Source of the DNA: Fulvia fulva
Lineage: Eukaryota; Ascomycota; Dothideomycetes; Mycosphaerellales; Mycosphaerellaceae
Direction: 5' to 3'
NCBI RefSeq assembly: GCF_020509005.1
Contig: NC_063021.1
Coordinates: forward strand, 682,001 to 746,000
DNA: 64,000 nucleotides
In this document: positions 39,746 through 60,800 of the stretch, one piece after another
How positions within the stretch are numbered: position 1 is the first letter of the stretch
How the letters are laid out: every line of letters begins with the position of its first letter
Program-made: the position numbers and the translations under genes
Notes under the pieces: model-generated
The model's database searches: none
What the model saw: only the letters and a program-made list of their open reading frames with translations
Told to the model about the DNA's origin: nothing

Positions 39746-40635
39746 CTATATAAGGGTGTATAGCTAGTTGTTATTTGTTTAGTATATATACCGATATCTT
39801 AAGCTCCTTACTATAGTCCGTCTCTTATATTCTATGTCTCTTAATCTTATACTCTTTCTGTCTTAGAAAGTTCGGTTACTAACCGCTATCTACTACGCTT
39901 AGGTAGCGGTCGTACCATTTCCCTATTACTATAGGTCGGTAGTAAGGGAGCTAAGGTTCGGGTTAGCGTTCGCGTTATTTCGTAGGCGTAGAGGGCGGTA
40001 GTCGCCGTCGTAACTATATATCGGGTATTCGGGATTCGTTAATACGTACGAGCCTATACGGTAGCGGTAGTACTTACCCTACTTCTTAAGGTCCTCCCGC
40101 TACTTACGGTTTAATAAAGGTAGGTTCTATAAGTAAACTAGTAGGTCCTCCTTCTTCTTCGTACCTACGTATTATAGTAGTCGCTAGACAATTATAGCGG
40201 TCGTACTAGTAGCTACGGCGCCTACGGTATTACTACCGCCCTATACGCCGTTATTGTTCGAATTAGGGTTACTACGTAGACGCTCCTTCTATAGATATAG
40301 TCGGTCGGTCTCGTAGAAGCTCTTATCTAATACCGTATATTCCTTAATAACATCCTATATATTATATAAGCGTCTATCTACTTCCCTATCGCCGAAAGTC
40401 TTAATAAAGTACTTACGGTTTAGGCGGTTACGAAATAGTATTAGCTTAGTCTCGTCGGTCTACTCTATCTAAGTACGTAGCTTCGAGTAGCGAGCGTAGA
40501 AGGTAATAAAGGTCTCGCCCTACTCCTACTTATAGGTAGCAATATTAACTATAGCCTTAGTTCCTTCGTTACGGGTACCGTACTAGCGCGTTATCTAATC
40601 TAGTAGTTCTTTACTAGTCTTAAACTCGTTAAATA
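39746..40635 (-). pseudogene. Gypsy-2-prime gag C-terminal remnant
   Basis: The reverse complement matches Gypsy-2 from about 29240 back to 28335. Many stops. Bases 40621-40635 form the left TSD of LINE F (TAAACTCGTTAAATA). Confidence 0.8.
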
Positions 40636-40849
40636 GATAGATAGATAGATAGATTATTCATTCGCCTGTTTTAGTGCCCTATGGCCTATGCAGGTCTCTC
40701 GCTATTTAGGTCTATTTATGTAGGTAGGAAACCCGATTAACGGATGAAAACCTCCTCGTCTTTGCCCTCCTCGTTCTTTCCTGTCTTGTCCTTTCGTTCT
40801 CCTTCCTTCAGGGTACGCTAGTATTATAGTTATTACCCTATAACTACCT

Positions 40850-43800
40850 TGCCCGTAACCCTAGTGATGTCCTCCTCTCGATTCCCTTTCTCCCTTCTGT
40901 TTCCCCGGCTCTTCTCTCTCTCTCCCTCCTCTCTATCTACCTTTCCGTTTCTACTACTAGGGAGAATTGCTCTAGATAGTCCTCGTTAAGGATCTATCTT
41001 GTCACTCTCCTTATATCTTGTCTGTCCTAGATGATGGCCTAGTATTGCCTATCTCTTGCCTTCGCCCTCTACTAGCTTCTCCCTTTTACCTACTTAGTAC
41101 AGTTCAGTACTATGTGCTCCGGGTTTTAGGATAGGTAGCTATAGGGGCAACGTTTAGAATCGTATCCTAGGACTCTTCTTTAGTGCAAGTATACTCTTAG
41201 CCTAATGTACTTAGAGCGAATCTGGATAGCTATGCTTGCTTCCGCCCTCTTTAGGTCTTTATAGATAAGGTAGTTATACCTCCCGAAGGTCCTGGCCGCT
41301 AGTAGGGCTCCTGGCCTCACCGGTTTTTGGTTCTAACGCGTTTCCTATAGGTGACCTACGATCCTTTCTGCTTAGCTTTGCTTCTTTTTCCCTTTGTCCC
41401 CTATATTAGCTTACTCCCTCAGAGCTTCTCTCTATTTAAGGGCTACTAGGATTTCCTATGATGTTTTTAGGTCTGCTTCCTTCTATAGGATTATATATAG
41501 CCGGTTAGGTCTTCTCCTCCTCTCCTACTAGGTTCTTATCCTTTAAGTAGCTGCTTAGATAGTTCCCTAGGCTGGGTATACTAATGTCTTCTCTACGTAT
41601 TGACACCTTATGCCCTAGAGGTACTCCCTAATAGGGGCTGTACCTGATTCCATTTCTATTGTCCTGTAAGGGGTTGACTTATATGCCCCTAGTACTCTCT
41701 TTAGGCAGGCTGCCTACGCTCTATTAAGGGGGTCCTCAATTCTCTTCGGGATGTGTTTTTCCGCTACCTAAATTGCTACTCTATATAGCATTACGGGCTT
41801 AATAATGGCCTTATATATAGTCTAGGCCTTTGTGAAGGTCGCCCCCTAGGTTAACGTAGTGAGTCTCTCGATTAATTGTCTATTAGTGTCCGCTCTCGCT
41901 TACGCCTTCTTCACTTGTGGTCCCTAGCTAAGTTTCGGGTCTAGCTATATCCTAAGGACTCTGAGTTCCCTTATAGGATAGGTCTCGAACCCCTGGATTT
42001 TTACTAGTACTACTAAGTTATGTTTTGTCTTTACCTTACTAAAATAGATAAGTTAGTACTTGTCCGGTACGAATTTTGCCCTATACTCTCTTGCCCACTT
42101 TTCGCATTGTCTATGTCTCTCCTCTAGGAGTGCGCAGTTTTCCTCTATAGACCCCGACTACGCTAGGATATTTGTGTTATCTACGAACCCCGATACTAAG
42201 GTGTTTACTGTTTCTAGGAGTAGGGTCAGGTCGGCTATAAAGAGGAGGAACAGAATTGGGGAGAGTGTAGAGCCCTATAGGATGCCCGTGTTCGTAATTA
42301 GGGTCTACGGGGCTTTGAAGGACCCTAGGAGGATCTAGGTTGTTCTGTCCTTAAGGAATGACTACACAAAGTATACTATCTAGGCTAGGATGCTTTTTAT
42401 TCTAAGGATGTGTAGGAGCCTTACGTAGGACATATTGTCGAAAGCCCCTGATATGTCTAGTAAAAGCAGTGAGGCTACCTTATTGTTACTATAGTACTAG
42501 ATGTGTCTGATTTGCTCTATGATCAGTTCGACTGCTATAAGGGTAGATCTCTTTTGTCTCCCCCCTATTTACGTTACCGGGAGGAGGTTATGTTCTTCTA
42601 CTATTCCGGTGAGCCTTATAGCCACGACCTTCTCTAGGAGCTTCCCTAGTATGTTCAGCAACGCAATTAGTCTATATGACTTCAACTTAGTATAGTCTTC
42701 CTTTTAGGGTTTCCTTAGGACGTAAGTCAGTGATTGCCTAAAGGCCTTTAGGCAATACCCCTACTTTATGTACTAGGTAAAGATTAGCGTAAGCACTAGA
42801 GTGATAAGGCTACTACTAGCTTTTAGGTAACAGTTAGGGATCTTGTCTAGGCCTAGGGCTTTGTTGCCCTTCAGTTTCTTGATAATGTTTCCGATCTCTA
42901 TAGTAGATACTTACTAGTTAGCCTCCCTTAGCGGAGGAATGTGTGTTCCTAGGATGTTGCTTAGGTCTGCCTCTACCTAAGTCCCGAAGAAGTGGTCTAC
43001 GAATGCTTTCGCTTTCCCTATCGGAGTGGTTTGCGTTTCCCCGTCTTGGTCCTATATTAAGGGAAACTAGGGCGGGGAGTTTCGTTCCTCGTCTAGTTTC
43101 CTAGCCTATTCTACTAGTCTCCAGATTTGTTCCGGGTGTTCTATAATCATCCCTATAGTTGACCTCCACTCCTACGTCTTGTCTCTTCTGATCTACGCCT
43201 TCTTTGCTTTATACGCGTTGTTATAGGCTTCCTAGTTTGCTTAGGTGCGTCGTTACTCCTATCTCCTTCTTGCTCTCCTTGCCTCCTTAACTTTAGCTAT
43301 ATACTCTAGTGTCTAGTATAGCTTCTAGTATAGCGACTATCTCTTCTTAGGTATATAGGCCTAGGCTACCCTTTGTATAGCTTCTATTAGCTGCTCCACT
43401 GCTTAGTTAATCCCCTCCGTTATATGTATATTATTAATGTTCACCTGTTCTAGTTCGCCTTCTAGCCGCTACTATACTAGTGTCCACTCGGCCTACTTCT
43501 AGCAGAGCCTCCTCTTAGGTTCCCTCTCCTCCTTAACTATAAGTTGGATGTCGGTTTGGATTAGATAGTGGTCTAATAAGGACTCTAGTTAGTCATTGAC
43601 TATATAGCTTTCTACCCGTCGTGTTAAGGCGTAGGACATAAAGCATAGGTCTAGCGTGCTAGAACTGTTGTTTCTAGCCCAAGTTTCTGTTCCCTTTAGC
43701 GTGATTAAGTCCATTTAGGCTGTTTCTATCTAACTAATAAGCCTCCCTACTAAGAAGTAGTATACTAGGGTGAAGTCCGATCCCTACTTTAGGTAGTAGA

Positions 43801-44245
43801 GGTTGAAATCTCCTATTACGATGTTGTGGTTTTGTTAGTCTATTGCTTCCGGGAGCCTTCCTAGCGTATATAGTTGTGTACTGCTTCTAGACTCTAGAGG
43901 TGGGTTATATACGCTATAGATTAGGACTTGGCCTTAAGTTGTTTTGAGCTGTACTATAGTAATATCCCTGTCGGTTCTCGGCTAGGCCTACTAGTCCTCT
44001 ACTAGTACCTTCTTACTAACATAGATACAAGTTCGTAGGACTCCCTCGGTTCTGTTTATTACTACGTAGTATCTCGGGTCTCGCATAGTTGATGGAATCC
44101 TAGAGTATAGGTTGATCTATAGTTCCTATATTACTATAATATAGTGTTCCTCCGGGTCTAAGGCTTGTAGAAAGCTCCTTTAGACCTTGTCTTTGCTTCT
44201 GTTCACATTATACTAAATGATTGATAGTCTGTTAGTATGAGGCAT
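40850..44245 (-). pseudogene. LINE F ORF2 remnant
   Basis: ATG at 44245, followed by an SIIxYNVN endonuclease start. The FVDD-type RT box is near 42.18 kb, at the same spacing as in LINE D. Multiple nonsense codons. The downstream end is approximate. Confidence 0.7.
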
Positions 44246-45537
44246 TAGGACATGTTTATATCTAGGTCCGTTTGGTCTTACTATTGGTCTTGCTATTAGT
44301 TTTCCCGTCCCTCCTCCTGTTCTTCCCTTTAGGGTTAGCTCCCTATCATTTAGTTGATTCTTATTTGTCTATTGCTCTACGCTGCCTTGTATAAGAACGT
44401 TAGTCTCCCTATTACTAGCACTATTTATAGCTCCTCTTGTAGCCGGGGTCTCTTATTCGGGTGGGTGGTTCTCTCTAGTTGTTTCTGTTCACCTACTAGG
44501 AACCTAGTTAGTGTTATTACCCTTGCTTCCCGCGCTCTCCACTAGGCTGATAGTCTAACTAGGCATTGGTTTGACCATGCCGGGTGTTTTCTCCTATATA
44601 CTACGCATCTTGTGTCCTCCTTCCGTTTTTGGCACTCTTAGGTCGCGTGATCACTAGCATAGTGTAAGCAGACTAGTGTAGCTTTGCTACACTTTAGGGC
44701 AATATGTCCGTACTGTTAATAGTTGAAACATTGAAGGATTCTATAGTTGCTCTAATAGATTTCTATATCTAGCCTCTCAAAGTCCTAGTACAACCCTTAG
44801 TCTAAGACCTTGTTCGCTTGCTCTAGTGTTATAACCTATAAGATTAGCGAGGAGGCCCTCTTGCCCTCCTCTATCTTCTTCTTAACCTACGCTATCTTTG
44901 TGATCTATAGTCCTAGTGCTGTTACCTAGTTTTGCCTCTAGAGGTTTAGTGTATCCCTTTGTGTGTCAAAGGTTCGTAGGACCCTATACGTAATTACTAT
45001 GTACTGTTGATAGGAGACTTTCGCTATGCTCCCGATCTTTAGTATCTACTCCTTATTTATTTCGAGGGCCTTCTTATCCTATACGTGTGCTATAAACAGC
45101 TTGACCCCTTTGTTGTCTGCCCTTGCCCCTACTATTCCCTTTACTCCGATCTTCTTAACTATCTCCCTCCCGGTCATCTTTCCTATCTCTTCCTTCTCTT
45201 TCTAGTCCGTAATATAGACTCGTAGTACTATGCTTTAAGGGGGGGTGGGTTGGCTCGCGATTGTTGCCTAGGTCGTTAGGCCCTAGGTCTGTCTCGGGTC
45301 TCTTTGAGGGTTATTTCTTGCGTTTCGTGTTACTGCCTCGATTGCCATGTTGATCGTAGTGCTTGTTTGTCGTTTGAGCGCCTTTAGTCCCCCGAGCAGT
45401 TCGCTTATTACTCCTTTTAGTACTCTCTCCGGAAACCTCCCTTCTTCTACCGCTACTATCTCTTCCGCCTTCTTATAGAGCGTCCTCTACTCGTCTCCCC
45501 CTTACTCTCGGTCGTCTACTGCCGTCGTCGTCGCCAT
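44246..45537 (-). pseudogene. LINE F ORF1 remnant
   Basis: Starts MATTTAVDDRE at 45537. It contains a decayed run of Cys/His knuckles around 44.58-44.73 kb. Broken by stops. The position directly before ORF2 matches LINEs C and D. Confidence 0.65.
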
Positions 45538-45576
45538 TTCCCGTTAAAGCGAGAATATCACCTACGCTATATAATA

Positions 45577-45809
45577 TGTTAAACAGGTACGAGTTGCGCA
45601 GCAGTGGAAGACGGCGGATCACACAAAAGACGAAGAAGGACCCAATGGGATAGCGTGTATCTACATACAGTATCGCCGGTGTTGGTGTAGGTAGATGCTA
45701 GGTGTCCGGATGTTGGCCAGCCTATAGGCTGGCAAACCCTAGTCACGTGATCTATCACATGACACACCCACACCTACATGCTTGTCCTGCGGCCTGTATG
45801 TTCTCAACA
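45577..45809 (-). repeat. Copia LTR 1 (3' LTR of the downstream unit)
   Basis: 233 bp, TGTTAAAC to CTCAACA. Contains the perfect 18-bp palindrome GCCAGCCTATAGGCTGGC at 45716-45733 and a CACGTG box. In sense, the tract GAGTGGGAG (45810-45818) just before this LTR is a candidate polypurine tract. Confidence 0.95.
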
Positions 45810-45844
45810 CTCCCACTCAGGCCACATGGTCTCCTACAATCCCT

Positions 45845-48800
45845 TTACGCAAGCTGGAGCTGCCTTACAAAGTTTTGGAACTGCTGGCCATTGAGGGGCT
45901 TTGTTAACCCATCAGCAGCCATGTCCTTTGTATGGCAGTAGTCCACTGCAATCTTCTTCTGCCACCAGAGATGTCTGACATAGTTATATGCAACATCAAT
46001 ATGCTTTGACCTTTCATGCACATGGGCATCTTTGACAAGTGTCAAAGCGGCTTGGTTGTCACCCATGAGCTTGACTGGCCTTAGCTCGTCAACAGTGCCC
46101 TTGCTTGCCCTTACACTCGGCTGGAAAGAGCTCTTTCCCACCAGTTCTGGGCACCCCATTTCCCTGAGGACAGCAGCAAGAAATTGTGACTGCTTTGCGG
46201 CTGCGTTCATAGCCATGAACTCAGCTTCAATTGTTGATGTTGCAACAGACTTCTGCTTCCTACTCATCCAGGACACAGGTGATCCACAAAGGAACCACAC
46301 GTATCCCAGAATTGAGACTCTATCCACTTTGTCCATAGCGTAGTCAGAGTCCGAGTATCCCTGGAGATTGCCCCCTCCCTTTCTATACATAAGACCTAGG
46401 TCTGGGTACGACCGCAGGTATCGGGAGAGCTTCTTCAAAGCCTTCATATGCTGCTGCGAGGGATCAGCAACAAATGAGCTAATTCTTCCAAGGGGGAATG
46501 CTAAGTCTGGCCTTGTCATTGTCATTGGCCACATCCAGGTACCATTGTGGCTCTGGTAATCCTGTTTGTTGCACCTCTCATCCATAGGTGCCGTAGGCAC
46601 TAAATGCTCGTAGCTCTCCATAGGTGAGTGGGTTGGCGTAGCCTTCTCTCTAGCCATGTTCATCTTGGCTAAGTTAGCGTGGACATAGTGTCCTTGATCA
46701 AGCTTCAAAGTGCCTTGGGACCTGTCTCTTGTAATCCTCATTCCAAGGATCTTCGTAGGTTCACCAAGATCTTTAATCTTAAACACTTTTCCAAGCTCAG
46801 CCTTAAACCACTGAACATCTGACAGCTTCGGAGCTGCAATGGGTATGTCATCCACATGGGTAAGGACCATAAGGTCTCTATCCGTATGGATAAGTAGGCA
46901 TGGATCTACCTGGGACTGGGTAAATCCAATCTTCTCTAGCTTCGCAACACAGAGCTTGTTCCAGTCTCTAGCTGCTTGCTTAAGCCCATAAAGGCTTCGT
47001 AGGACCTTGAACACCATGTTTGGAGGTGCTTCAACTCCTGGGGGTGGGATCATATAGATGTCTTCAAGAAGGCTGCTTTGGGTAAAAGCATTATTCACAT
47101 CCACTAGGTGCATCTCGAGATCTCTCTCACATACTACTGCCATGAATACTCGGAGAGTATCATGTCTAACAGTAGGTGCAAAGGTCTCTTCGAAGTCAAC
47201 CCCATATTTCTGTGAAAACCCTCTTGCAACTAGTCTTGCCTTGAACTTCTCAATGGCTCCACTAATCATTCTTTTCACATCAAAGACCCACCTAGAAGTA
47301 ATTAGATTCGCACCCTTTGGCGGTACAACTGCTTCCCAGGTGTTGTTGCTTGCTAAGGCAATAAGTTCGTTCTCGATTGCCTCTCTCCACATATGTCCCC
47401 ATTCGGGGTCTCCTACGGCTGCCTTATAGGACTTTGGGATTGGCACTTCCTGCTGATAGGCTATGGCCTGCCCAACAGCAGCAAATGCATGTTCTTCCAC
47501 GTCGTTCAGAATCTCCTCTACCCAGCTCATTGTAGGGTCTAGATGGAACATCTGGGCGATAAGAGCCTTATGGTGTTTAGCCTCATGCTCTTCAGAGTTA
47601 TCATCTCCGTCCCCCCTTGACCTCTTGTTGCCTGCAACCTGAGGTGGCGCTAGGTGTTCGGATGGGTCGAACTGAACGACATCTTCTTTTTCTTTCATTG
47701 GAGTACCCTGATCTCCAAACTTCTGGTATTCCCCAATGTCCTTTGGGGGAGGGGGAAGTTGCACAAACAGCGGTTGCTGTGGTGTTGATGACTTGGGTAG
47801 GTTCTGTACAGATCCACCGTTATCGGCCTTCGACAGTGTTGAAACCGCCTCAATATTTTCTCCTGGCCTTCGTAACGGTGTCTCTGATAATCCCCTATCG
47901 GAAAATTTCGCCCCAAAGGGCTTCCTCCCAACAGGATTGCGCTGTGGCGCTCGACTCGGCTGGTTAGTGAAGGTGATACCAAGATCCATATCTCCCCCCT
48001 TCTCATTCTCAAACCAGTCGACGTGACTATGCGCTTTTATTGCTTTCATGTCGGGATCCCAGAACAGCCATTGTTTTGTGGTGTTTTCTGAGTAGCCCAC
48101 AAACACGGCTTCTTTTCCTCGGTTCATCAACTTGTCTCTCCTCAAGCCTTGAGGTTGGGCTCTTGGGTCTACATAGACCACAGCTTTGCATCCCCAGACG
48201 CGGAAATGGTCGACTGACGGTACTTGGCCAGTAAAGGCTTCTTCTGGTGAAAGAGCAATACCATCAATGATCGGACCATTAGGCAGTCTGTTTCTGATCA
48301 CAGTCTGTGCTTGCAAAGCTTCTGGCCAGAACTCAACTGGCATGCCAGAGTCTTCAAGCATAGCCCGGACTGTGTTCTCAGAGGCTTGAATTGACCTTTC
48401 CACAGGTCCATTTTGAAGAGAGTTGTAGGCATCAGTTGTGTCCATCTGAGTGCCAAACTCCTTCTCCCACTCTTTTAGCAAGGCGAGAATTTCCTTTGCA
48501 CCATCACTGCGGATCGCAGACAGAAAGCACCTTGACTGCCGTTCTGCCTGGACCTTCCAATCCCGTAGGGCTGCAGGAGCGTCGCTCCTGGCCTTCAAAG
48601 GGATTACCCACTTCTTCCTAGAGAAGTTGTCTACAATCTCAAGCCAATATTTGTATCCTAGCCTAGAGACTGCGCCCTGAAAAGGCCCACAGATGTCAAT
48701 GGAGATGAGGGCCAGCCTCTCCCCTTTCCTCTCTGTGGCAGGTCCTTTGAACTTCCTCATGTTTGCAAGGGAGCAGACCTTGCAATTCTGGTGTTCAGAA

Positions 48801-50371
48801 GGAACAGGAATGGGATCTTTCTTGTCAGTGACTCTATGCAGGTTTCTTAGCAGTCCCTTGCCAAGGTGTGCACATCTTCTATGCCATAGCTCCCACTGAT
48901 CTTCGGACTCAGTGTTAGCCATAGCGGTACCGTCACGTTCTTGAGAGAGTATGCCAGCATGCTGTGGCTCAAGAATTTCCGAGATCGAGTGGATAAACGG
49001 TACTCCTCCTCGAAGTTTGGTCTGGACAACGGGTTTACCAGACAAGGATTTTAGGGTGAAACTGGGTGGTTGGACAGCAAACTGTTGGCTGAACTGATTC
49101 CACGAAACAAGACTAACTCCAAGGCCAGGAACAAACAGGACATTTTCTAAGACAATTTGCTTTCCAGAAGGACCACCCATTACTGCACTTCCCATATGTG
49201 TAGCTTGTAGATAGCCACCCCCAACCTTGATCCACTTCCTCTTTTGAAGAGGCTTCAGTGTCCTGAATAGTGAATCTTGGTCAGTCATATGTGATGATGC
49301 ACAAGAGTCAAGCAACCACTCGGACGAGGGGTACTTGCCTTTGGCTTCCACAGTGGAATGGGCAACCTCATCAACATCATCATCTTCTGATGGTATCTCA
49401 GGGTCTGATGCGTCTTCCTGGGTCGCATGGGCCCTTGCAGGCTTACTAGAGGAGGCCTTTGGCTTGCGGCTCTCCTTCATCTGCTTTGCAAGGTCCGTCA
49501 TCACCTTGAGGACATCACGAAGGTTTGGTGATGATGACCTCCTACGAGGTGGTGACGGTTGTCTCTTAGCAGGGTAGGTAACCCTAGCTAGTTTGTCCTT
49601 GTTCCTAACAGCCTGCTGAGCTGCAGAAAGGTGTGGGCACTTGCTCATAAAATGGTCACCACCGCAGAGATGGCACGTGAGCTTGCCCTGGAAACCCTTC
49701 TTAGCGAACATGGCTGTCCCTTGATGAATCATTGATTCTTGCTTCTCCCTAAGAATTGCAAGAATGTCTTGTGGTGAGAGATTCACCTGGGCATCAATTG
49801 CATCGCGAATTGAGCCAAATGAGTCTGGCAGAGCTGCTAAGAGTTGCTGGATCTTTCTGTCCTCAGTCTTGATGTCTTGGAACTGAGGCGAGATTGAAAC
49901 AGCCCTCCTTGCAATTGAGCTAAGCTCCTGCCAGGCGTCATCTATAGACTGGTCTTCTGTCATCACGAAATTGGTGTATTGCTGAAGCAAACTTCTTCCA
50001 GTAGCGAGAAGTCTTCTCTTATATTTAGCTTCAGCCCATTCCCACAACTCCTTCGCATGCCGGATCTCGTATGTCATCTCTTGGTCATCTGTCGACAGAC
50101 AGATGTACATCTCATACAGGGCCGTTGCATTGTGCCGTCTGTACGATGCCTTCCTTATCGCTTGATCCAAAGGAAGGGATGACTCCGATGATGCAGAGGG
50201 TGTCGCTATAGATGGGGTTGCAGCGGGAATGTCCGTGATGATGTCTTCGAGGACCCAGTCAACCTGCTTTGATACCAGGTGTATTCTCATCAGCTTGAAC
50301 CATGTTTCGTGGTTCTCTCTTGTCAGAAGAGGTGCTGCTCTCTTTCTTATGAACCCAGTCTCGTTCTCCAT
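45845..50371 (-). CDS. Copia Gag-Pol polyprotein, downstream copy
   Basis: 1508 codons in one frame from ATG at 50371. Copia elements make Gag-Pol as one polyprotein cut by its own protease. The N-terminal gag region is followed by a CCHC knuckle (CHLCGGDHFMSKC, 233-245). Protease LDSCASSH is near 354-361. The GAG-pre-integrase has WHRRCAHLG near 495. Integrase carries D559, D623 and E658. RT has RWVFDVK near 1027, VDVNNAFTQ near 1090, SLYGLKQAARDW near 1126 and catalytic HVDD near 1172. RNase H carries YSDSDYA near 1339 and TKPLNGQQF at the end. The catalytic box is HVDD rather than the commoner YVDD. It ends 35 bp from the 3' LTR. All domains are present, so it may be functional. Confidence 0.95.
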   Translation of the reverse strand: MENETGFIRKRAAPLLTRENHETWFKLMRIHLVSKQVDWVLEDIITDIPAATPSIATPSASSESSLPLDQAIRKASYRRHNATALYEMYICLSTDDQEMTYEIRHAKELWEWAEAKYKRRLLATGRSLLQQYTNFVMTEDQSIDDAWQELSSIARRAVSISPQFQDIKTEDRKIQQLLAALPDSFGSIRDAIDAQVNLSPQDILAILREKQESMIHQGTAMFAKKGFQGKLTCHLCGGDHFMSKCPHLSAAQQAVRNKDKLARVTYPAKRQPSPPRRRSSSPNLRDVLKVMTDLAKQMKESRKPKASSSKPARAHATQEDASDPEIPSEDDDVDEVAHSTVEAKGKYPSSEWLLDSCASSHMTDQDSLFRTLKPLQKRKWIKVGGGYLQATHMGSAVMGGPSGKQIVLENVLFVPGLGVSLVSWNQFSQQFAVQPPSFTLKSLSGKPVVQTKLRGGVPFIHSISEILEPQHAGILSQERDGTAMANTESEDQWELWHRRCAHLGKGLLRNLHRVTDKKDPIPVPSEHQNCKVCSLANMRKFKGPATERKGERLALISIDICGPFQGAVSRLGYKYWLEIVDNFSRKKWVIPLKARSDAPAALRDWKVQAERQSRCFLSAIRSDGAKEILALLKEWEKEFGTQMDTTDAYNSLQNGPVERSIQASENTVRAMLEDSGMPVEFWPEALQAQTVIRNRLPNGPIIDGIALSPEEAFTGQVPSVDHFRVWGCKAVVYVDPRAQPQGLRRDKLMNRGKEAVFVGYSENTTKQWLFWDPDMKAIKAHSHVDWFENEKGGDMDLGITFTNQPSRAPQRNPVGRKPFGAKFSDRGLSETPLRRPGENIEAVSTLSKADNGGSVQNLPKSSTPQQPLFVQLPPPPKDIGEYQKFGDQGTPMKEKEDVVQFDPSEHLAPPQVAGNKRSRGDGDDNSEEHEAKHHKALIAQMFHLDPTMSWVEEILNDVEEHAFAAVGQAIAYQQEVPIPKSYKAAVGDPEWGHMWREAIENELIALASNNTWEAVVPPKGANLITSRWVFDVKRMISGAIEKFKARLVARGFSQKYGVDFEETFAPTVRHDTLRVFMAVVCERDLEMHLVDVNNAFTQSSLLEDIYMIPPPGVEAPPNMVFKVLRSLYGLKQAARDWNKLCVAKLEKIGFTQSQVDPCLLIHTDRDLMVLTHVDDIPIAAPKLSDVQWFKAELGKVFKIKDLGEPTKILGMRITRDRSQGTLKLDQGHYVHANLAKMNMAREKATPTHSPMESYEHLVPTAPMDERCNKQDYQSHNGTWMWPMTMTRPDLAFPLGRISSFVADPSQQHMKALKKLSRYLRSYPDLGLMYRKGGGNLQGYSDSDYAMDKVDRVSILGYVWFLCGSPVSWMSRKQKSVATSTIEAEFMAMNAAAKQSQFLAAVLREMGCPELVGKSSFQPSVRASKGTVDELRPVKLMGDNQAALTLVKDAHVHERSKHIDVAYNYVRHLWWQKKIAVDYCHTKDMAADGLTKPLNGQQFQNFVRQLQLA

Positions 50372-50535
50372 TTTTTGTAAGTTGAGGGACAGGTTGGCTG
50401 CCCTCAGGTAAAAGGATGTATTCGGTCGTACGCGATCGGATCGAAATGGGATAAACCGAACGCGAGGTTGATAGCGGAGAGGATGGCTATCCGCCGGGAA
50501 GAGGAGGAAAGTCGGTCGGTAAGGATCGTGTTAGT

Positions 50536-50600
50536 GCTGAGACACTGTAGCGTAACTCTCTCAGCAGAGGGGGTTTCTGAGACACTGCGGCTCTCTCAGA
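50536..50600 (-). other. Two tandem hairpins in the Copia leader
   Basis: On the plus strand 50536-50565 has arms GCTGAGA and TCTCAGC, and 50576-50600 has arms TCTGAGA and TCTCAGA. Both share the motif CACTG next to the first arm. The end pair differs (G-C against T-A) but still pairs. They lie between the primer site and gag, where packaging or dimer signals often are. A second set is at 55838-55902. Confidence 0.5.
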
Positions 50601-50851
50601 TGGAACAGTTAGTCGATGCGAACGCGATGTCCGGAGAGCGACTCTTCTCAGTAAGCTCGCCCACTTGTCTGAGGTATTGGCACAGGCTCCCTGACTCGGA
50701 GTCTGACAGTGCCTCACTAGGCTCTTTCACGTCTTATATGCACCTACAGCACGGCTGTAGCTTCCTGTGCAAGGCGGGTGCGGCCTCCAGTCTGCCTTCC
50801 TTTTGTTCTGAAGAGGAATAACTCCAATACGACTTTGTCGAGGGTGAAACA

Positions 50852-50878
50852 CCGAGTTGCTAACCCGGGCTCATAACC
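50852..50878 (-). promoter_or_regulatory. Copia primer-binding site, Met-tRNA anticodon-arm type (downstream copy)
   Basis: Directly after the 5' LTR in sense is GGTTATGAGCCCGGG. Its complement reads as a tRNA anticodon arm with loop CTCATAA (50870-50876), holding CAT, the Met anticodon. Drosophila copia is primed by an internally cleaved initiator-Met tRNA half in the same way. Copy 2 of this site lies 5302 bp on. Confidence 0.72.
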
Positions 50879-51111
50879 TGTTAAACAGGTACGAGTTGCG
50901 CAGCAGTGGAAGACGGCGGATCACACAAAAGACGAAGAAGGACCCAATGGGATAGCGTGTATCTACATACAGTATCGCCGGTGTTGGTGTAGGTAGATGC
51001 TAGGTGTCCGGATGTTGGCCAGCCTATAGGCTGGCAAACCCTAGTCACGTGATCTATCACATGACACACCCACACCTACATGCTTGTCCTGCGGCCTGTA
51101 TGTTCTCAACA
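50879..51111 (-). repeat. Copia LTR 2 (shared middle LTR)
   Basis: Same 233-bp sequence. It serves as 3' LTR of the unit at higher coordinates and 5' LTR of the unit at lower coordinates. Confidence 0.95.
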
Positions 51112-51146
51112 CTCCCACTCAGGCCACATGGTCTCCTACAATCCCT

Positions 51147-54100
51147 TTACGCAAGCTGGAGCTGCCTTACAAAGTTTTGGAACTGCTGGCCATTGAGGGG
51201 CTTTGTTAACCCATCAGCAGCCATGTCCTTTGTATGGCAGTAGTCCACTGCAATCTTCTTCTGCCACCAGAGATGTCTGACATAGTTATATGCAACATCA
51301 ATATGCTTTGACCTTTCATGCACATGGGCATCTTTGACAAGTGTCAAAGCGGCTTGGTTGTCACCCATGAGCTTGACTGGCCTTAGCTCGTCAACAGTGC
51401 CCTTGCTTGCCCTTACACTCGGCTGGAAAGAGCTCTTTCCCACCAGTTCTGGGCACCCCATTTCCCTGAGGACAGCAGCAAGAAATTGTGACTGCTTTGC
51501 GGCTGCGTTCATAGCCATGAACTCAGCTTCAATTGTTGATGTTGCAACAGACTTCTGCTTCCTACTCATCCAGGACACAGGTGATCCACAAAGGAACCAC
51601 ACGTATCCCAGAATTGAGACTCTATCCACTTTGTCCATAGCGTAGTCAGAGTCCGAGTATCCCTGGAGATTGCCCCCTCCCTTTCTATACATAAGACCTA
51701 GGTCTGGGTACGACCGCAGGTATCGGGAGAGCTTCTTCAAAGCCTTCATATGCTGCTGCGAGGGATCAGCAACAAATGAGCTAATTCTTCCAAGGGGGAA
51801 TGCTAAGTCTGGCCTTGTCATTGTCATTGGCCACATCCAGGTACCATTGTGGCTCTGGTAATCCTGTTTGTTGCACCTCTCATCCATAGGTGCCGTAGGC
51901 ACTAAATGCTCGTAGCTCTCCATAGGTGAGTGGGTTGGCGTAGCCTTCTCTCTAGCCATGTTCATCTTGGCTAAGTTAGCGTGGACATAGTGTCCTTGAT
52001 CAAGCTTCAAAGTGCCTTGGGACCTGTCTCTTGTAATCCTCATTCCAAGGATCTTCGTAGGTTCACCAAGATCTTTAATCTTAAACACTTTTCCAAGCTC
52101 AGCCTTAAACCACTGAACATCTGACAGCTTCGGAGCTGCAATGGGTATGTCATCCACATGGGTAAGGACCATAAGGTCTCTATCCGTATGGATAAGTAGG
52201 CATGGATCTACCTGGGACTGGGTAAATCCAATCTTCTCTAGCTTCGCAACACAGAGCTTGTTCCAGTCTCTAGCTGCTTGCTTAAGCCCATAAAGGCTTC
52301 GTAGGACCTTGAACACCATGTTTGGAGGTGCTTCAACTCCTGGGGGTGGGATCATATAGATGTCTTCAAGAAGGCTGCTTTGGGTAAAAGCATTATTCAC
52401 ATCCACTAGGTGCATCTCGAGATCTCTCTCACATACTACTGCCATGAATACTCGGAGAGTATCATGTCTAACAGTAGGTGCAAAGGTCTCTTCGAAGTCA
52501 ACCCCATATTTCTGTGAAAACCCTCTTGCAACTAGTCTTGCCTTGAACTTCTCAATGGCTCCACTAATCATTCTTTTCACATCAAAGACCCACCTAGAAG
52601 TAATTAGATTCGCACCCTTTGGCGGTACAACTGCTTCCCAGGTGTTGTTGCTTGCTAAGGCAATAAGTTCGTTCTCGATTGCCTCTCTCCACATATGTCC
52701 CCATTCGGGGTCTCCTACGGCTGCCTTATAGGACTTTGGGATTGGCACTTCCTGCTGATAGGCTATGGCCTGCCCAACAGCAGCAAATGCATGTTCTTCC
52801 ACGTCGTTCAGAATCTCCTCTACCCAGCTCATTGTAGGGTCTAGATGGAACATCTGGGCGATAAGAGCCTTATGGTGTTTAGCCTCATGCTCTTCAGAGT
52901 TATCATCTCCGTCCCCCCTTGACCTCTTGTTGCCTGCAACCTGAGGTGGCGCTAGGTGTTCGGATGGGTCGAACTGAACGACATCTTCTTTTTCTTTCAT
53001 TGGAGTACCCTGATCTCCAAACTTCTGGTATTCCCCAATGTCCTTTGGGGGAGGGGGAAGTTGCACAAACAGCGGTTGCTGTGGTGTTGATGACTTGGGT
53101 AGGTTCTGTACAGATCCACCGTTATCGGCCTTCGACAGTGTTGAAACCGCCTCAATATTTTCTCCTGGCCTTCGTAACGGTGTCTCTGATAATCCCCTAT
53201 CGGAAAATTTCGCCCCAAAGGGCTTCCTCCCAACAGGATTGCGCTGTGGCGCTCGACTCGGCTGGTTAGTGAAGGTGATACCAAGATCCATATCTCCCCC
53301 CTTCTCATTCTCAAACCAGTCGACGTGACTATGCGCTTTTATTGCTTTCATGTCGGGATCCCAGAACAGCCATTGTTTTGTGGTGTTTTCTGAGTAGCCC
53401 ACAAACACGGCTTCTTTTCCTCGGTTCATCAACTTGTCTCTCCTCAAGCCTTGAGGTTGGGCTCTTGGGTCTACATAGACCACAGCTTTGCATCCCCAGA
53501 CGCGGAAATGGTCGACTGACGGTACTTGGCCAGTAAAGGCTTCTTCTGGTGAAAGAGCAATACCATCAATGATCGGACCATTAGGCAGTCTGTTTCTGAT
53601 CACAGTCTGTGCTTGCAAAGCTTCTGGCCAGAACTCAACTGGCATGCCAGAGTCTTCAAGCATAGCCCGGACTGTGTTCTCAGAGGCTTGAATTGACCTT
53701 TCCACAGGTCCATTTTGAAGAGAGTTGTAGGCATCAGTTGTGTCCATCTGAGTGCCAAACTCCTTCTCCCACTCTTTTAGCAAGGCGAGAATTTCCTTTG
53801 CACCATCACTGCGGATCGCAGACAGAAAGCACCTTGACTGCCGTTCTGCCTGGACCTTCCAATCCCGTAGGGCTGCAGGAGCGTCGCTCCTGGCCTTCAA
53901 AGGGATTACCCACTTCTTCCTAGAGAAGTTGTCTACAATCTCAAGCCAATATTTGTATCCTAGCCTAGAGACTGCGCCCTGAAAAGGCCCACAGATGTCA
54001 ATGGAGATGAGGGCCAGCCTCTCCCCTTTCCTCTCTGTGGCAGGTCCTTTGAACTTCCTCATGTTTGCAAGGGAGCAGACCTTGCAATTCTGGTGTTCAG

Positions 54101-55673
54101 AAGGAACAGGAATGGGATCTTTCTTGTCAGTGACTCTATGCAGGTTTCTTAGCAGTCCCTTGCCAAGGTGTGCACATCTTCTATGCCATAGCTCCCACTG
54201 ATCTTCGGACTCAGTGTTAGCCATAGCGGTACCGTCACGTTCTTGAGAGAGTATGCCAGCATGCTGTGGCTCAAGAATTTCCGAGATCGAGTGGATAAAC
54301 GGTACTCCTCCTCGAAGTTTGGTCTGGACAACGGGTTTACCAGACAAGGATTTTAGGGTGAAACTGGGTGGTTGGACAGCAAACTGTTGGCTGAACTGAT
54401 TCCACGAAACAAGACTAACTCCAAGGCCAGGAACAAACAGGACATTTTCTAAGACAATTTGCTTTCCAGAAGGACCACCCATTACTGCACTTCCCATATG
54501 TGTAGCTTGTAGATAGCCACCCCCAACCTTGATCCACTTCCTCTTTTGAAGAGGCTTCAGTGTCCTGAATAGTGAATCTTGGTCAGTCATATGTGATGAT
54601 GCACAAGAGTCAAGCAACCACTCGGACGAGGGGTACTTGCCTTTGGCTTCCACAGTGGAATGGGCAACCTCATCAACATCATCATCTTCTGATGGTATCT
54701 CAGGGTCTGATGCGTCTTCCTGGGTCGCATGGGCCCTTGCAGGCTTACTAGAGGAGGCCTTTGGCTTGCGGCTCTCCTTCATCTGCTTTGCAAGGTCCGT
54801 CATCACCTTGAGGACATCACGAAGGTTTGGTGATGATGACCTCCTACGAGGTGGTGACGGTTGTCTCTTAGCAGGGTAGGTAACCCTAGCTAGTTTGTCC
54901 TTGTTCCTAACAGCCTGCTGAGCTGCAGAAAGGTGTGGGCACTTGCTCATAAAATGGTCACCACCGCAGAGATGGCACGTGAGCTTGCCCTGGAAACCCT
55001 TCTTAGCGAACATGGCTGTCCCTTGATGAATCATTGATTCTTGCTTCTCCCTAAGAATTGCAAGAATGTCTTGTGGTGAGAGATTCACCTGGGCATCAAT
55101 TGCATCGCGAATTGAGCCAAATGAGTCTGGCAGAGCTGCTAAGAGTTGCTGGATCTTTCTGTCCTCAGTCTTGATGTCTTGGAACTGAGGCGAGATTGAA
55201 ACAGCCCTCCTTGCAATTGAGCTAAGCTCCTGCCAGGCGTCATCTATAGACTGGTCTTCTGTCATCACGAAATTGGTGTATTGCTGAAGCAAACTTCTTC
55301 CAGTAGCGAGAAGTCTTCTCTTATATTTAGCTTCAGCCCATTCCCACAACTCCTTCGCATGCCGGATCTCGTATGTCATCTCTTGGTCATCTGTCGACAG
55401 ACAGATGTACATCTCATACAGGGCCGTTGCATTGTGCCGTCTGTACGATGCCTTCCTTATCGCTTGATCCAAAGGAAGGGATGACTCCGATGATGCAGAG
55501 GGTGTCGCTATAGATGGGGTTGCAGCGGGAATGTCCGTGATGATGTCTTCGAGGACCCAGTCAACCTGCTTTGATACCAGGTGTATTCTCATCAGCTTGA
55601 ACCATGTTTCGTGGTTCTCTCTTGTCAGAAGAGGTGCTGCTCTCTTTCTTATGAACCCAGTCTCGTTCTCCAT
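51147..55673 (-). CDS. Copia Gag-Pol polyprotein, upstream copy
   Basis: The same 1508-residue protein as at 45845-50371, shifted by exactly 5302 bp with no amino-acid difference. Same domain order and motifs: gag with CCHC, protease, integrase, RT (RVT_2 type) and RNase H. Its 5' LTR is at 56181-56413 and its 3' LTR is the shared middle LTR at 50879-51111. Identity of two long repeats would normally attract RIP in a sexual cycle, so the duplication is recent, or RIP is inactive, or the assembly duplicated it. Confidence 0.94.
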   Translation of the reverse strand: MENETGFIRKRAAPLLTRENHETWFKLMRIHLVSKQVDWVLEDIITDIPAATPSIATPSASSESSLPLDQAIRKASYRRHNATALYEMYICLSTDDQEMTYEIRHAKELWEWAEAKYKRRLLATGRSLLQQYTNFVMTEDQSIDDAWQELSSIARRAVSISPQFQDIKTEDRKIQQLLAALPDSFGSIRDAIDAQVNLSPQDILAILREKQESMIHQGTAMFAKKGFQGKLTCHLCGGDHFMSKCPHLSAAQQAVRNKDKLARVTYPAKRQPSPPRRRSSSPNLRDVLKVMTDLAKQMKESRKPKASSSKPARAHATQEDASDPEIPSEDDDVDEVAHSTVEAKGKYPSSEWLLDSCASSHMTDQDSLFRTLKPLQKRKWIKVGGGYLQATHMGSAVMGGPSGKQIVLENVLFVPGLGVSLVSWNQFSQQFAVQPPSFTLKSLSGKPVVQTKLRGGVPFIHSISEILEPQHAGILSQERDGTAMANTESEDQWELWHRRCAHLGKGLLRNLHRVTDKKDPIPVPSEHQNCKVCSLANMRKFKGPATERKGERLALISIDICGPFQGAVSRLGYKYWLEIVDNFSRKKWVIPLKARSDAPAALRDWKVQAERQSRCFLSAIRSDGAKEILALLKEWEKEFGTQMDTTDAYNSLQNGPVERSIQASENTVRAMLEDSGMPVEFWPEALQAQTVIRNRLPNGPIIDGIALSPEEAFTGQVPSVDHFRVWGCKAVVYVDPRAQPQGLRRDKLMNRGKEAVFVGYSENTTKQWLFWDPDMKAIKAHSHVDWFENEKGGDMDLGITFTNQPSRAPQRNPVGRKPFGAKFSDRGLSETPLRRPGENIEAVSTLSKADNGGSVQNLPKSSTPQQPLFVQLPPPPKDIGEYQKFGDQGTPMKEKEDVVQFDPSEHLAPPQVAGNKRSRGDGDDNSEEHEAKHHKALIAQMFHLDPTMSWVEEILNDVEEHAFAAVGQAIAYQQEVPIPKSYKAAVGDPEWGHMWREAIENELIALASNNTWEAVVPPKGANLITSRWVFDVKRMISGAIEKFKARLVARGFSQKYGVDFEETFAPTVRHDTLRVFMAVVCERDLEMHLVDVNNAFTQSSLLEDIYMIPPPGVEAPPNMVFKVLRSLYGLKQAARDWNKLCVAKLEKIGFTQSQVDPCLLIHTDRDLMVLTHVDDIPIAAPKLSDVQWFKAELGKVFKIKDLGEPTKILGMRITRDRSQGTLKLDQGHYVHANLAKMNMAREKATPTHSPMESYEHLVPTAPMDERCNKQDYQSHNGTWMWPMTMTRPDLAFPLGRISSFVADPSQQHMKALKKLSRYLRSYPDLGLMYRKGGGNLQGYSDSDYAMDKVDRVSILGYVWFLCGSPVSWMSRKQKSVATSTIEAEFMAMNAAAKQSQFLAAVLREMGCPELVGKSSFQPSVRASKGTVDELRPVKLMGDNQAALTLVKDAHVHERSKHIDVAYNYVRHLWWQKKIAVDYCHTKDMAADGLTKPLNGQQFQNFVRQLQLA

Positions 55674-55837
55674 TTTTTGTAAGTTGAGGGACAGGTTGGC
55701 TGCCCTCAGGTAAAAGGATGTATTCGGTCGTACGCGATCGGATCGAAATGGGATAAACCGAACGCGAGGTTGATAGCGGAGAGGATGGCTATCCGCCGGG
55801 AAGAGGAGGAAAGTCGGTCGGTAAGGATCGTGTTAGT

Positions 55838-55902
55838 GCTGAGACACTGTAGCGTAACTCTCTCAGCAGAGGGGGTTTCTGAGACACTGCGGCTCTCTCA
55901 GA
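55838..55902 (-). other. Two tandem hairpins in the Copia leader, upstream copy
   Basis: The 5302-bp-shifted duplicate of the pair at 50536-50600, without differences that I can see. Confidence 0.5.
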
Positions 55903-56153
55903 TGGAACAGTTAGTCGATGCGAACGCGATGTCCGGAGAGCGACTCTTCTCAGTAAGCTCGCCCACTTGTCTGAGGTATTGGCACAGGCTCCCTGACTCG
56001 GAGTCTGACAGTGCCTCACTAGGCTCTTTCACGTCTTATATGCACCTACAGCACGGCTGTAGCTTCCTGTGCAAGGCGGGTGCGGCCTCCAGTCTGCCTT
56101 CCTTTTGTTCTGAAGAGGAATAACTCCAATACGACTTTGTCGAGGGTGAAACA

Positions 56154-56180
56154 CCGAGTTGCTAACCCGGGCTCATAACC
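56154..56180 (-). promoter_or_regulatory. Copia primer-binding site, Met-tRNA anticodon-arm type (upstream copy)
   Basis: Identical to 50852-50878 and next to the outermost 5' LTR, so this is the copy a transcript of the upstream unit would use. Confidence 0.72.
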
Positions 56181-56413
56181 TGTTAAACAGGTACGAGTTG
56201 CGCAGCAGTGGAAGACGGCGGATCACACAAAAGACGAAGAAGGACCCAATGGGATAGCGTGTATCTACATACAGTATCGCCGGTGTTGGTGTAGGTAGAT
56301 GCTAGGTGTCCGGATGTTGGCCAGCCTATAGGCTGGCAAACCCTAGTCACGTGATCTATCACATGACACACCCACACCTACATGCTTGTCCTGCGGCCTG
56401 TATGTTCTCAACA
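56181..56413 (-). repeat. Copia LTR 3 (5' LTR of the upstream unit)
   Basis: Same 233-bp sequence; followed by TAATA, the right TSD copy. Confidence 0.95.
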
Positions 56414-56433
56414 TAATATAAACTCGTTAAATA

Positions 56434-57185
56434 ATTGTTATCTAGGTATAGGGATCCTCGGCTTAATACTTCTCTAAGGGTCACCCTATATCTATCTATA
56501 TATAAAACGTAGGCTATCTACCTCGGAGCGGAAAGTAGTTATAGTTAGCTTAAGAAGCACGCTACTATACTAACTATCGAAGTTAGGGTCGTTATCGTTC
56601 TTAAAGTACTTCGGGTTAGGTACGCCCTTACTAACCTCGATACCGCGTATTAGAGTACGGTTAATAGTAAATAGGCGTTCTAGAAGTTCGGTTAGAGGAG
56701 TCTATATACGGGTGTTACGCGCTCGAGAGTCGCGACCGTTATTATTATTAGGTCGTAGACGGTTTCTATTACGTCCTCGGTTATTATTACTATCGCCGTT
56801 ATTATCGTTACTACCGCCTCCGCCGCCGCCGCCTCTACTAGTAGCTTTACGATACTTACGTATTAGCTACTCGAGTAAAGTCTCGCGCGGAGGTAAATAG
56901 GAGGGTCGGTAACTAGAGCGGCCCTTACCTCTATTCTATATAGTGTCTTTAGTAGCTTAGAGTCGAGTCTTTAGATCGTTAACCTCCTTCTATAGAGCCT
57001 AGTTCTTAGCTTCGGTATCCTATACCTTCTTCTTCTCCTTTTCGTAAATCTCGCTAGATTACTTATATAGATTATTAGCCTCTCTATACTTCTTCTCTAC
57101 CTCTTATAACTTTGCTAGGTTATAATCCTTCTTACTCTTTAGGTCTACGGCTATCTTCTATATTATAGCTTCCTTACTTTGTAGC
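56434..57185 (-). pseudogene. Gypsy-2-prime gag N-terminal remnant
   Basis: The reverse complement matches Gypsy-2 from about 28335 back to 27570. The Gly run of Gag appears as CCG-rich codons near 56.82 kb and the coiled-coil segment near 57.0-57.1 kb. It stops at 57185, where a Gypsy-3-type LTR begins; the true 5' end and LTR are lost. Confidence 0.8.
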
Positions 57186-57380
57186 TATTACGGTTCACCT
57201 CGTAAGACTACACTTAGTACTACGTAATCTAGTACGCTAGCGCGCCCGGACCCTAGACCCCGACCTCGACGTTTACTTTATCGTAGCTTCGCGACTTTCT
57301 TATCTTCTCTTCTTCGTAGAACTTATTCGATTCTAAGGTATTAATACGTTTACGCCCTGTCTTACGCCTTGTCCGTGTCA
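57186..57380 (+). repeat. Gypsy-3-type LTR, right-hand copy
   Basis: 195 bp, the same family and orientation as 179-373; ends CCGTGTCA. It abuts Gypsy-2-prime without TSD. It may be the 3' LTR of Gypsy-3, with the rest of Gypsy-3 pol and the Gypsy-2-prime 5' end deleted between. Confidence 0.65.
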
Positions 57381-57590
57381 TAATCTCGGTATTCTTACCC
57401 TTAGCTATAACTAATTTCTAGGCTATTAGTAGTTTACTAAGTAATATATTCTAGGCTATTAGTAGTATTCTAAGGAGAGTATTATAGGAGGTTAGTAGAG
57501 ACTTAAGGTAAAGGTATAATATAATAGAGGGTGAGTAGTAGGTTTATAAAAAAAGGTAGAAGATACGTTAATCTACCTCTAAGCCTTATT
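57381..57590. other. AT-rich border with a 33-bp-spaced direct repeat
   Basis: No gene seen. TTCTAGGCTATTAGTAGT occurs at 57416-57433 and again at 57449-57466. TpA-rich composition ends near 57590, where ordinary sequence begins. Confidence 0.6.
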
Positions 57591-57770
57591 TGACTAGCGC
57601 CCGTATTCAGCGCGGTCGTTTCGCGTTTCTATGGTCTTGCCGAGGTCGTAGTGCCGTCTCGATCCTGACCACAGGCATCAAGGTAGACCCACCGATGGGC
57701 GTCGTAGGGTTGCTACGAGACGATTGGCGCTGTTCAGCATGCGCGACACTGGGAGCAGTAGACACGGTAG

Positions 57771-57777
57771 TATATAA
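57771..57777 (+). promoter_or_regulatory. TATA-like box of the CYP505 gene
   Basis: TATATAA lies 73-79 bp before the ATG at 57850, in non-RIPed sequence. The intergenic region back to the transposon island is only about 260 bp, so the promoter must be compact or extend into repeat DNA. Confidence 0.5.
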
Positions 57778-57849
57778 TGGTAGACTGAGCTGTCCCCTCT
57801 TGGAGTCTCTGGGCTACAGTAAGTTACAAGCTTCTTGAACCAGTTCATC

Positions 57850-60800
57850 ATGGGTTCGACAGACAACAACGGCTGTGAGCCGATCCCACAACCACCACAG
57901 CATCTCTACGGCCTGCTGGGGAACCTTCCAGACATCGACCCTGCCTTTCCCATCAAAGAGGTATGGCGGCTGGCGCAGCTCTACGGCCCCATCATGAGAC
58001 TGAACTTGAACGGCGATCACATTTACGTCTCCAGTCGGGAGCTTGTCAACGAAGTATGTGACGAGAAGAGATTCCACAAACACATTGGCCAAGTGCTCAA
58101 GGAGGTGAGAGCTCTCTTGGGAGATGGCCTCTTCACTGCATTTCCCAAGGAACCGAACTGGGGCAGAGCACACAGAATGCTCGTACCGGCCTTTGGTGAG
58201 TTGAGACAAAGCGGACGTACCGATCTCGACTGATGTATCAGGACCGATTGGCATTCGCAAGATGTTCGATGGTATGCAAGACATCGCCAGTCAAATGGTC
58301 CTACGATGGGATCGATTGGGCCCTGAGCACGAGATTGATTGCGGCGATGACCTCACGAGACTCGCCTTCGACACAATCGGACTGTGTGCCTTCTCATACC
58401 GCTTTAACGAGTTCTACACCGACAACGCCCACCCATTCGCCCAGCAAATGGCCGACGTGCTCGTAGAATCAGGCAAGAAAGCCAACCGGCCCCCCTTACT
58501 GCAGCGTCTATATCACAGATCAGAACAGCAGCGCCAGGACCAAGTCCAGGAGATGTGGAAGCTGTGCGACAAGATTGTTGCCGACAGGAAGAAACACCCA
58601 CAACCCGACAACCACGACTTGCTTAACACCATGCTCAACACTGTCGACCGCGGGACCGGCGAGGGTCTCTCGGACGAAAATATCCGCTTCCAGCTGGCAA
58701 CCTTTCTGGTAGCAGGACACGAAACCACATCGGCAACCCTCTCCTTCACGTACCTCAACATGCTCCAGAACCCCGCAACCCTCCTCAAAGCCCAGCGACA
58801 AGTCGACGAAGTCGTCGGCGATGATGTCTTGACCGTCGAGCACCTCTCGAAGCTCGACTACATCGATGCCTGCATCAAAGAGACCCTCCGCCTCAGCTCC
58901 CCCATTGGGGCCTTCACCGTCGGCTCAGACGAAGACCAAGTACTAGCTGGCAAATACTTCGTCCCCAAGAACACCGAGATAACAATCCTGAACAAACTCC
59001 TCCACCGCGACCCAGCCGTCTGGGATGACCCCGACTCCTTCAAACCAGAGCGCTGGCTCAACGGCGGTCTCCAAAAGCTCCCTCCCAACTCATTCAAGCC
59101 TTTCGGAAGCGGGATGCGTGCCTGTATCGGCCGGGGGTTCGCAGAGCAGGAGATGATTATAAATTTCGCGATGGTGCTGCAAAGGTTCCAGCTGGAGCTG
59201 GCGGATCCGAGTTATGAGTTGCAACTCAAGTCGACATTGACGATTAAGCCTTGGCAGTTTAGGATGAAGGTGCGGCGGAGGCAGGGCAAGTCGCCTCATG
59301 TGGGGATACCTGGTGGGCTGCAGAAGGCTACAGAGAAGGAGCATCGGACGCATCAAGCTGCGCATCGGCCGGCTAAGGATGATGGGGGGGAAGAGGCCTT
59401 TGGCGGTGTATTTTGGTGGTAACTCTGGTATGTTGCAGTCTGACGACTCTGTTCAATGTCACTAACGCTGTTGACTAGGAACGTGTGAAGCTCTTGCTCA
59501 GAGTCTACAGACTGCATGCAGTGATCACGGGTTTGAAGCTACCATTGCTGGACTGGATGCTGCGACAGAGCATGCTCCGACTGACCAGCCCGTCATCGTC
59601 ATTACATCTTCGTCCGAAGGCCAGCCACCTGACAACGCGAGGAAATTCGTCCACTGGCTAGGAGAGCTTGATCCTCAGAAGCAGGCTCTCAAGCATGTCA
59701 AATACGCTGTCTTCGGCGTAGGGAACTCAGACTGGGCGAGCACCTACCACAAAATCCCCCGTCTCGTCGATGATCTCGCCGCCAAGAACGGCGCACAACA
59801 GATCATCTCAGCTGGCTTCTCGAACGTCAAAGAGGACCCAATCGGACCCTGGGAAGACTGGTCCGACAAGCTACTCGAGGTCCTCAGCGGCGACAAAAGT
59901 GTCACGAAGGAGAAAACCACCCTCCAAGCCAACATCGAGCCCGACCCGCTCAGCCGCACACTGGGAGGCATGGAGATGAACTACGGCACTATCATAACCA
60001 ACAGAGAGCTTGCAGGGACTGAAGTAGGCCCTGCTAAACGTCACCTCGAGATCCAACTCCCGCACGACGCCGATTACCAGGCCGGCGACTACCTCGTCGT
60101 CCAACCCCACAACCCTCCCGAAAGCATCCACAGAGTCCTCGCCCACTTCGACCTAAACGACACCGACCTAGTAACTTTCACCAACTCCCCCAAGAAATAC
60201 CTCCCCTCAACTCCAACCCCCGTGGGAACCTTCCTAGCCGAAGCCGTCGAGCTCGCCACGCCGATTACGAAACGCCAACTTGAAAGCCTGGCGCCCTACG
60301 CCACCACTTCTGAGCAAAAATCTGCCCTGCAGAACTACATCACCACCTACAACACCACAACCCTCACAAACCGCTACAGCCCCCTCGACATCCTCACCAC
60401 CCTATCCCTCACCACCGTCCCCTTCCCCCACTACATCGACCTCCTCCCCCCGCTCTCTCCCCGCCAATACTCCATCTCCTCCTCCCCCCTCGTCCAACCC
60501 GAATCCGTCTCATTGACCATCGACGTCCACTCCTCCCCGGCGTTAAGCGGCACCGGTCTATTCCAGGGCGTAGCCTCCACCTACCTTGCCACGCGCAGAA
60601 TAGGAGACCGAATCTCCTGCTTCATCCGCCCGACGAACGTCGGCTTTCGAATTCCATCCGTGGACGTCCCTCTCATCATGATCTGCGCCGGCACCGGAAT
60701 AGCCCCCATGCGCGCCTTCCTCCAGGAACGCTCCGCCATCGCCGCCGCTGGTACGTCAATGTTCAGGGCAGGCAGGAGGCATCGTCCGTCTTCGACATGC

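Follow-up and report, generated by a model that had tools for sequence, protein, structure and literature searches.

A shared-LTR tandem of a Ty1/Copia retrotransposon inside one 5-bp duplication in Fulvia fulva, and its probable origin by doubling in place

How does an LTR retrotransposon come to stand twice at one genomic site, with an LTR common to both copies and a single pair of short duplications (TSD) around the whole? The question is raised by a locus of Fulvia fulva (NCBI RefSeq assembly GCF_020509005.1, contig NC_063021.1), where the window, by which we mean the whole stretch of 64,000 nucleotides analysed here, holds a Copia tandem at 45577-56413, known here from the assembly sequence alone and in one isolate. 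A direct-repeat search of the window places the unit starts 5302 bp apart, and three LTRs alternate with two internal regions in the same orientation, in the order LTR-int-LTR-int-LTR. All three LTRs are 233 bp long, letter-for-letter identical and bounded by TG...CA, and the middle one is a single complete LTR, common to both units, with internal sequence on both sides. The features of the tandem are as follows:

45572..45576, no strand: left copy of the 5-bp TSD, TAATA, in the flank sequence
45577..45809, minus strand: LTR 1, the 3' LTR of the minus-strand array, 233 bp, TG...CA
45810..45820, minus strand: stretch purine-rich in its minus-strand sequence, directly inside LTR 1
45845..50371, minus strand: gag-pol frame of unit 1, 1508 codons without an internal stop
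46229, no strand: private variant site of unit 1, nonsynonymous, residue 1381
50859..50878, minus strand: sequence adjoining LTR 2, like a primer binding site (by sequence likeness)
50879..51111, minus strand: LTR 2, the shared middle LTR, 233 bp
51147..55673, minus strand: gag-pol frame of unit 2, identical to the unit 1 frame
51531, no strand: private variant site of unit 2, same base as in unit 1
56181..56413, minus strand: LTR 3, the 5' LTR of the array, 233 bp
56414..56418, no strand: right copy of the 5-bp TSD, TAATA, in the flank sequence

Compared base by base at an offset of 5302, from 45577 to 51111, the two units show 0 mismatches over 5,535 comparable bases (one unit plus one LTR), which gives a 95% upper bound of about 5.4e-4 per site on their divergence. 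TAATA stands at the outer ends only, and a scan of the whole tandem found neither it nor its reverse complement inside. An earlier note on this DNA had described two 5302-bp units with a common middle LTR and TAATA at the outer edges; its coordinates proved exact, and a search for a hidden TSD around the middle LTR, which is flanked by internal sequence, returned none. The note had also called the copies identical over more than 10 kb: the identity holds, and the figure is the span of the tandem rather than the length compared, which is only 5,535 bp.

Judged from its sequence features, the element is a minus-strand Ty1/Copia LTR retrotransposon, and each unit contains one intact gag-pol frame. 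Scanned with Pfam in three consecutive pieces, the unit 1 frame matches Retrotran_gag_2, Pol_BBD, rve, SH3_retrovirus and RVT_2, an order of gag, integrase and reverse transcriptase that is that of Ty1/Copia elements, and the TG...CA ends of the LTRs and the 5-bp TSD are features of the same group. The match to rve, the integrase core, is weak (26.9 bits, below the curated Pfam cut-off of 32.6), and the three-piece scan reported no match to a protease domain. The purine-rich stretch is presumably the polypurine tract, by analogy, and 50859..50878, which resembles the anticodon arm of methionine tRNA, we take as a lead only to a putative primer binding site; an initiator tRNA pattern searched for in the genome as the primer gave 0 matches.

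Does the outer TAATA mark one integration? Of the family, 40 copies were fetched. All but one gave an unbroken alignment longer than 5 kb (L017, with a split alignment, was omitted), and 34 of these 39 single copies have a perfect 5-bp TSD, or 35 of 40 with the window tandem included; one of the five failures (L022) aligns with the greater part of its second LTR missing. When left and right flanks of different elements were paired as a control, they matched in 3 of 1560 pairings. Because a 5-bp TSD is the norm of the family and cross-pairings rarely match, the outer TAATA marks one integration, TAATA in AT-rich DNA being a weaker tag than most. The earlier note had argued for one integration rather than two independent insertions, and the single outer TSD and the shared middle LTR agree with it.

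The relationship between the two units is addressed most directly by a single base, at 46229 and 51531, which both units carry and which occurs in 0 of the 40 fetched family copies. The change is nonsynonymous. Genome-wide, a 31-base probe, which sees only family sites with at most 1 mismatch, found 77 sites, all of which were read. The only 2 exact matches lie in the window, and each of the remaining 75 sites has a different base at the private position. Across the 5302-bp unit, the window unit differs from each of the 40 fetched copies at at least 4 positions (median 14), and the two units of the tandem differ from each other at 0. Identity of the units is by itself no proof of local duplication, because full identity over the unit is also found between dispersed copies, in one of 780 pairs. 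That pair, L032 on contig C4 and L035 on C3, occupies different sites with a TSD of its own at each, and represents a very recent transposition pair. It is the private base, present in both units and at no other matching site, that makes local duplication of this copy the simplest account: the mutation would most simply have arisen once and then been duplicated in place. The private base also makes such a duplication more likely than a dimer made from the RNA of other copies. The argument depends mainly on this one base, and two units that differed at first could have been brought to the same state by gene conversion.

A single integration, followed by homologous recombination between LTRs out of register that doubled the element, is in our judgement the probable origin of the tandem. 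One Ty1/Copia element would have integrated at 45576/56414 and in doing so duplicated the 5 bp TAATA; its two LTRs would later have recombined out of register between sister chromatids (or homologous chromosomes), giving LTR-int-LTR-int-LTR on one product and, as the reciprocal product of such an unequal exchange, a solo LTR. This reading fits best, since it accounts for the anatomy and the one TSD as well as for the identical units and the private base, and requires no source copy elsewhere. We infer the exchange itself, a sister chromatid as its partner and its timing, after RIP (repeat-induced point mutation) of the surrounding repeats. The earlier note had offered unequal LTR recombination or integration of a dimer; that proposal is supported, and the private base adds weight on the side of local duplication.

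Tandem junctions of this kind are rare in the genome searched (67,169,167 bases in 14 contigs). A pattern in which internal sequence adjoins both ends of a middle LTR matches once without mismatch, in the window, and a 533-base junction query matches over its whole length only in the window (among the best 40 of 1270 candidates). A chance repeat was rejected, the junction occurring once in 67 Mb and its reversed control 0 times. A looser pattern, allowing 3 mismatches at most and an LTR 234 long, finds one further junction site, C5:18753-19002. It lies in a family relic that has its three LTRs stacked (L069, C5:18150-19650), where internal sequence is followed by an LTR, by 33 bases of internal sequence and by two more LTRs, preceded by 19 and 6 internal bases. 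In the longest match of this relic, 69 of 90 differences are C-to-T or G-to-A and thus RIP-like, and the relic is perhaps what decay and internal deletions have left of an older tandem array. No family match beyond the relic was found at C5:13300-13900, and one internal-region match (75%) lies at C5:23850-24450.

Solo LTRs are also present in the family. An LTR probe gave 94 exact matches among the best 100 of 352, and 14 sites without an evident partner were picked by eye from the coordinates of these 94; the other 80, including the three of the window, were taken, from coordinates only, to have a partner or to adjoin internal sequence. Two of the 14 are solo LTRs with a 5-bp TSD (L058 and L063), 11 border on internal sequence at one side, and the right end of one was not recognised. 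Since two of the 14 are solo LTRs with a TSD, recombination between LTRs does occur in this family. Counts obtained with up to 3 mismatches (811 and 338 for the boundary patterns, 352 for the LTR pattern) disagree, probably include related families, and are not used as element counts.

The site into which the element went is itself a repeat inside a repeat, with these features:

40621..40635, no strand: left 15-bp target duplication of the LINE-like element
40636..45576, minus strand: RIP-mutated LINE-like element with the Copia at its right end (63-67% collinear matches to a LINE-like copy)
56419..56433, no strand: right 15-bp target duplication of the LINE-like element

The LINE-like copy used for comparison, at about 5.2-9.8 kb of the window on the minus strand, has Pfam matches to RVT_1, an endonuclease and a zinc knuckle, and the element at 40636-45576 has a (GATA)4 tail at its left end. 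TAATA forms its last five bases, and the tandem sits exactly at the LINE boundary, a position that may be coincidence. The right flank belongs to a dispersed repeat, of which the sequence that precedes it in six other fetched copies is found at 40521-40635 of the window. An empty-site query of the joined flanks was matched half by half only (among the best 40 of 649 candidates), because the left flank is a LINE-like element inserted, with a 15-bp duplication, into the repeat of the right flank. The composite RIP index is 1.47 for 40001-45571 and 1.94 for 56419-57800, as against -0.68 for unit 1; since the flanks are RIP-marked and unit 1 is not, the Copia element arrived after RIP of its surroundings. 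The likely order is the repeat, insertion of the LINE-like element, RIP, insertion of Copia at the right end of the LINE-like element, and doubling.

Several other routes lead to the same or a similar structure. The one that survives best, unlikely as we judge it, is that extrachromosomal DNA, either a circle with one LTR or a linear cDNA, entered an LTR of a resident single element by recombination and so added a unit, which would give the same anatomy and keep the TSD. Parts of the literature speak for such events: circles of the rice blast fungus element Copia1 show the read pattern expected of homologous recombination (PMC9694575), and tandem Ty1 elements are known in yeast (PMC3102749). 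The extrachromosomal DNA must, however, have stemmed from the window copy, the private base being present at 0 of 75 other matching sites, any of which was a possible source; a unit with the variants of another copy would favour this route, and none was seen. That the circle was the element's own, one-LTR and reintegrated into its own LTR, likewise seems doubtful. If true, the gain would be self-targeted and integrase-free, in a fungus that heavily mutates repeats, and the lack of damage to the tandem would be a record that no sexual cycle with active RIP has taken place since.

Quite improbable is a dimeric cDNA that arose by a template switch from one RNA to a second in the same particle and was integrated once by integrase. 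Sabot and Schulman, writing on cereal Copia complexes (PMC1950507), name a flanking 5-bp TSD and similar outer LTRs as signs of such dimers, and the window tandem has both, its outer LTRs being highly similar. These two signs do not separate a template-switch dimer from unequal recombination within one element, and against the dimer stands the private base, which both RNAs would need and which has to come from a source copy that still exists or has been lost; 0 of 75 other matching sites carry it, a count that a source copy since lost, or more diverged within the 31 bases of the probe, would escape. A dimer with an LTR-LTR junction was rejected, the window having a single complete middle LTR; the exact junction pattern gave 0 matches genome-wide, a search that would miss mutated junctions, and the relic on contig C5 has closely stacked LTRs.

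We consider it very improbable that the genome has one unit and that the assembler doubled it. The complete identity of the units would be expected of such an artefact, and a later paper by the group that described the Cladosporium fulvum Race 5 assembly, presumably the one analysed here, mentions that the long reads used for it were error-prone, with a possible effect on the accuracy of repeat assembly (PMC10823647). According to its description (PMC9453070), however, this assembly (14 contigs, 67.17 Mb) rests on PacBio reads with a mean length of 14,638 bp and a depth of about 125x, and the structural-variant and coverage checks reported there by the authors found few problems, namely two candidate structural variants, without Illumina support, and three possible collapsed regions. 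By a rough computation about 47 reads would span the 10.8 kb plus 1 kb if read lengths are exponential, and no other family copy has a mismatch-free tandem junction. Finally, two independent neighbouring insertions, fused through their proximal LTRs with loss of the intervening DNA, as is usual for plant shared-LTR complexes according to work cited in PMC1950507, have next to no chance here and were rejected, because they predict no matching outer TSD (cross-pairings match in 3 of 1560) and usually different units, and leave the shared private base unexplained.

Our preferred reading, unequal recombination between the LTRs of one integrated element, can be set beside known systems. Complex LTR retrotransposons of plants (for example those of Angela in Triticeae) likewise have three LTRs and two internal regions in the order LTR-IN-LTR-IN-LTR, and the Triticeae complexes described in PMC1950507 resemble the window tandem in having one flanking pair of 5-bp TSDs and near-identical outer LTRs; 10 LTR-IN-LTR-IN-LTR elements were reported in Arabidopsis by LTRtype (PMC5379124). 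In contrast to the Triticeae complexes, the LTRs and units in the window are fully identical and carry a variant found at no other matching family site, which argues for duplication after integration and not for a dimeric cDNA. In Saccharomyces cerevisiae, YJRWTy1-1/YJRWTy1-2 and YMLWTy1-1A/B are each given as a tandem pair of Copia-group elements sharing a site (PMC3102749), in another host and another family, and are likened to the window tandem by their tandem position. A Ty1/Copia element of Cladosporium fulvum, 5.6 kb long with 240-bp direct repeats, is similar in length, LTR size and domains (PMC10823647) and, compared by description only, probably belongs to the same or a sister family; the passages of that paper that link it to loss of Avr9 speak of truncated copies and a translocation and of no tandem.

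No report of the window locus was found in the main texts of the open-access literature among the matches listed. The tandem is a clean, young example from a filamentous fungus of a structure of which shared-LTR forms are already known in plants and tandem Ty1 elements in yeast. It matters in that tandem LTR retrotransposons allow element number to rise without transposition. Its presence or absence in four other sequenced isolates would date it relative to RIP and sex, the latter being thought rare in the host fungus; the many near-identical dispersed copies already allow a similar inference, so that the gain would be modest.

Some further observations concern the family and the window. Pairs of matches to the same LTR probe are spaced 4511 bp apart, as against about 5303, at C1:5037684/5042195, C2:713094/717605 and C7:4572955/4577466, and 5226-5227 bp apart at C7:2852754/2857981 and C9:1472556/1477782, which suggests shorter, perhaps non-autonomous, subfamilies with a common LTR. 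Two near-identical family copies, L038 (C2:2734467-2741001) and L037 (2743258-2749792), lie about 3 kb apart in opposite orientation and could allow inversion of the DNA between them. Elsewhere in the window, a largely unmutated Gypsy-type element with a chromodomain occupies 18158-23742 (frames of 1411 and 386 codons), and at 58262-60893 one strand carries a cytochrome P450 domain and then an FAD-binding reductase-type domain; the two may form one fused P450-reductase gene. A lipin-like gene at 61543-63903 has 88% identity to that of Dothistroma septosporum, the closest named species among the 120 matches listed.
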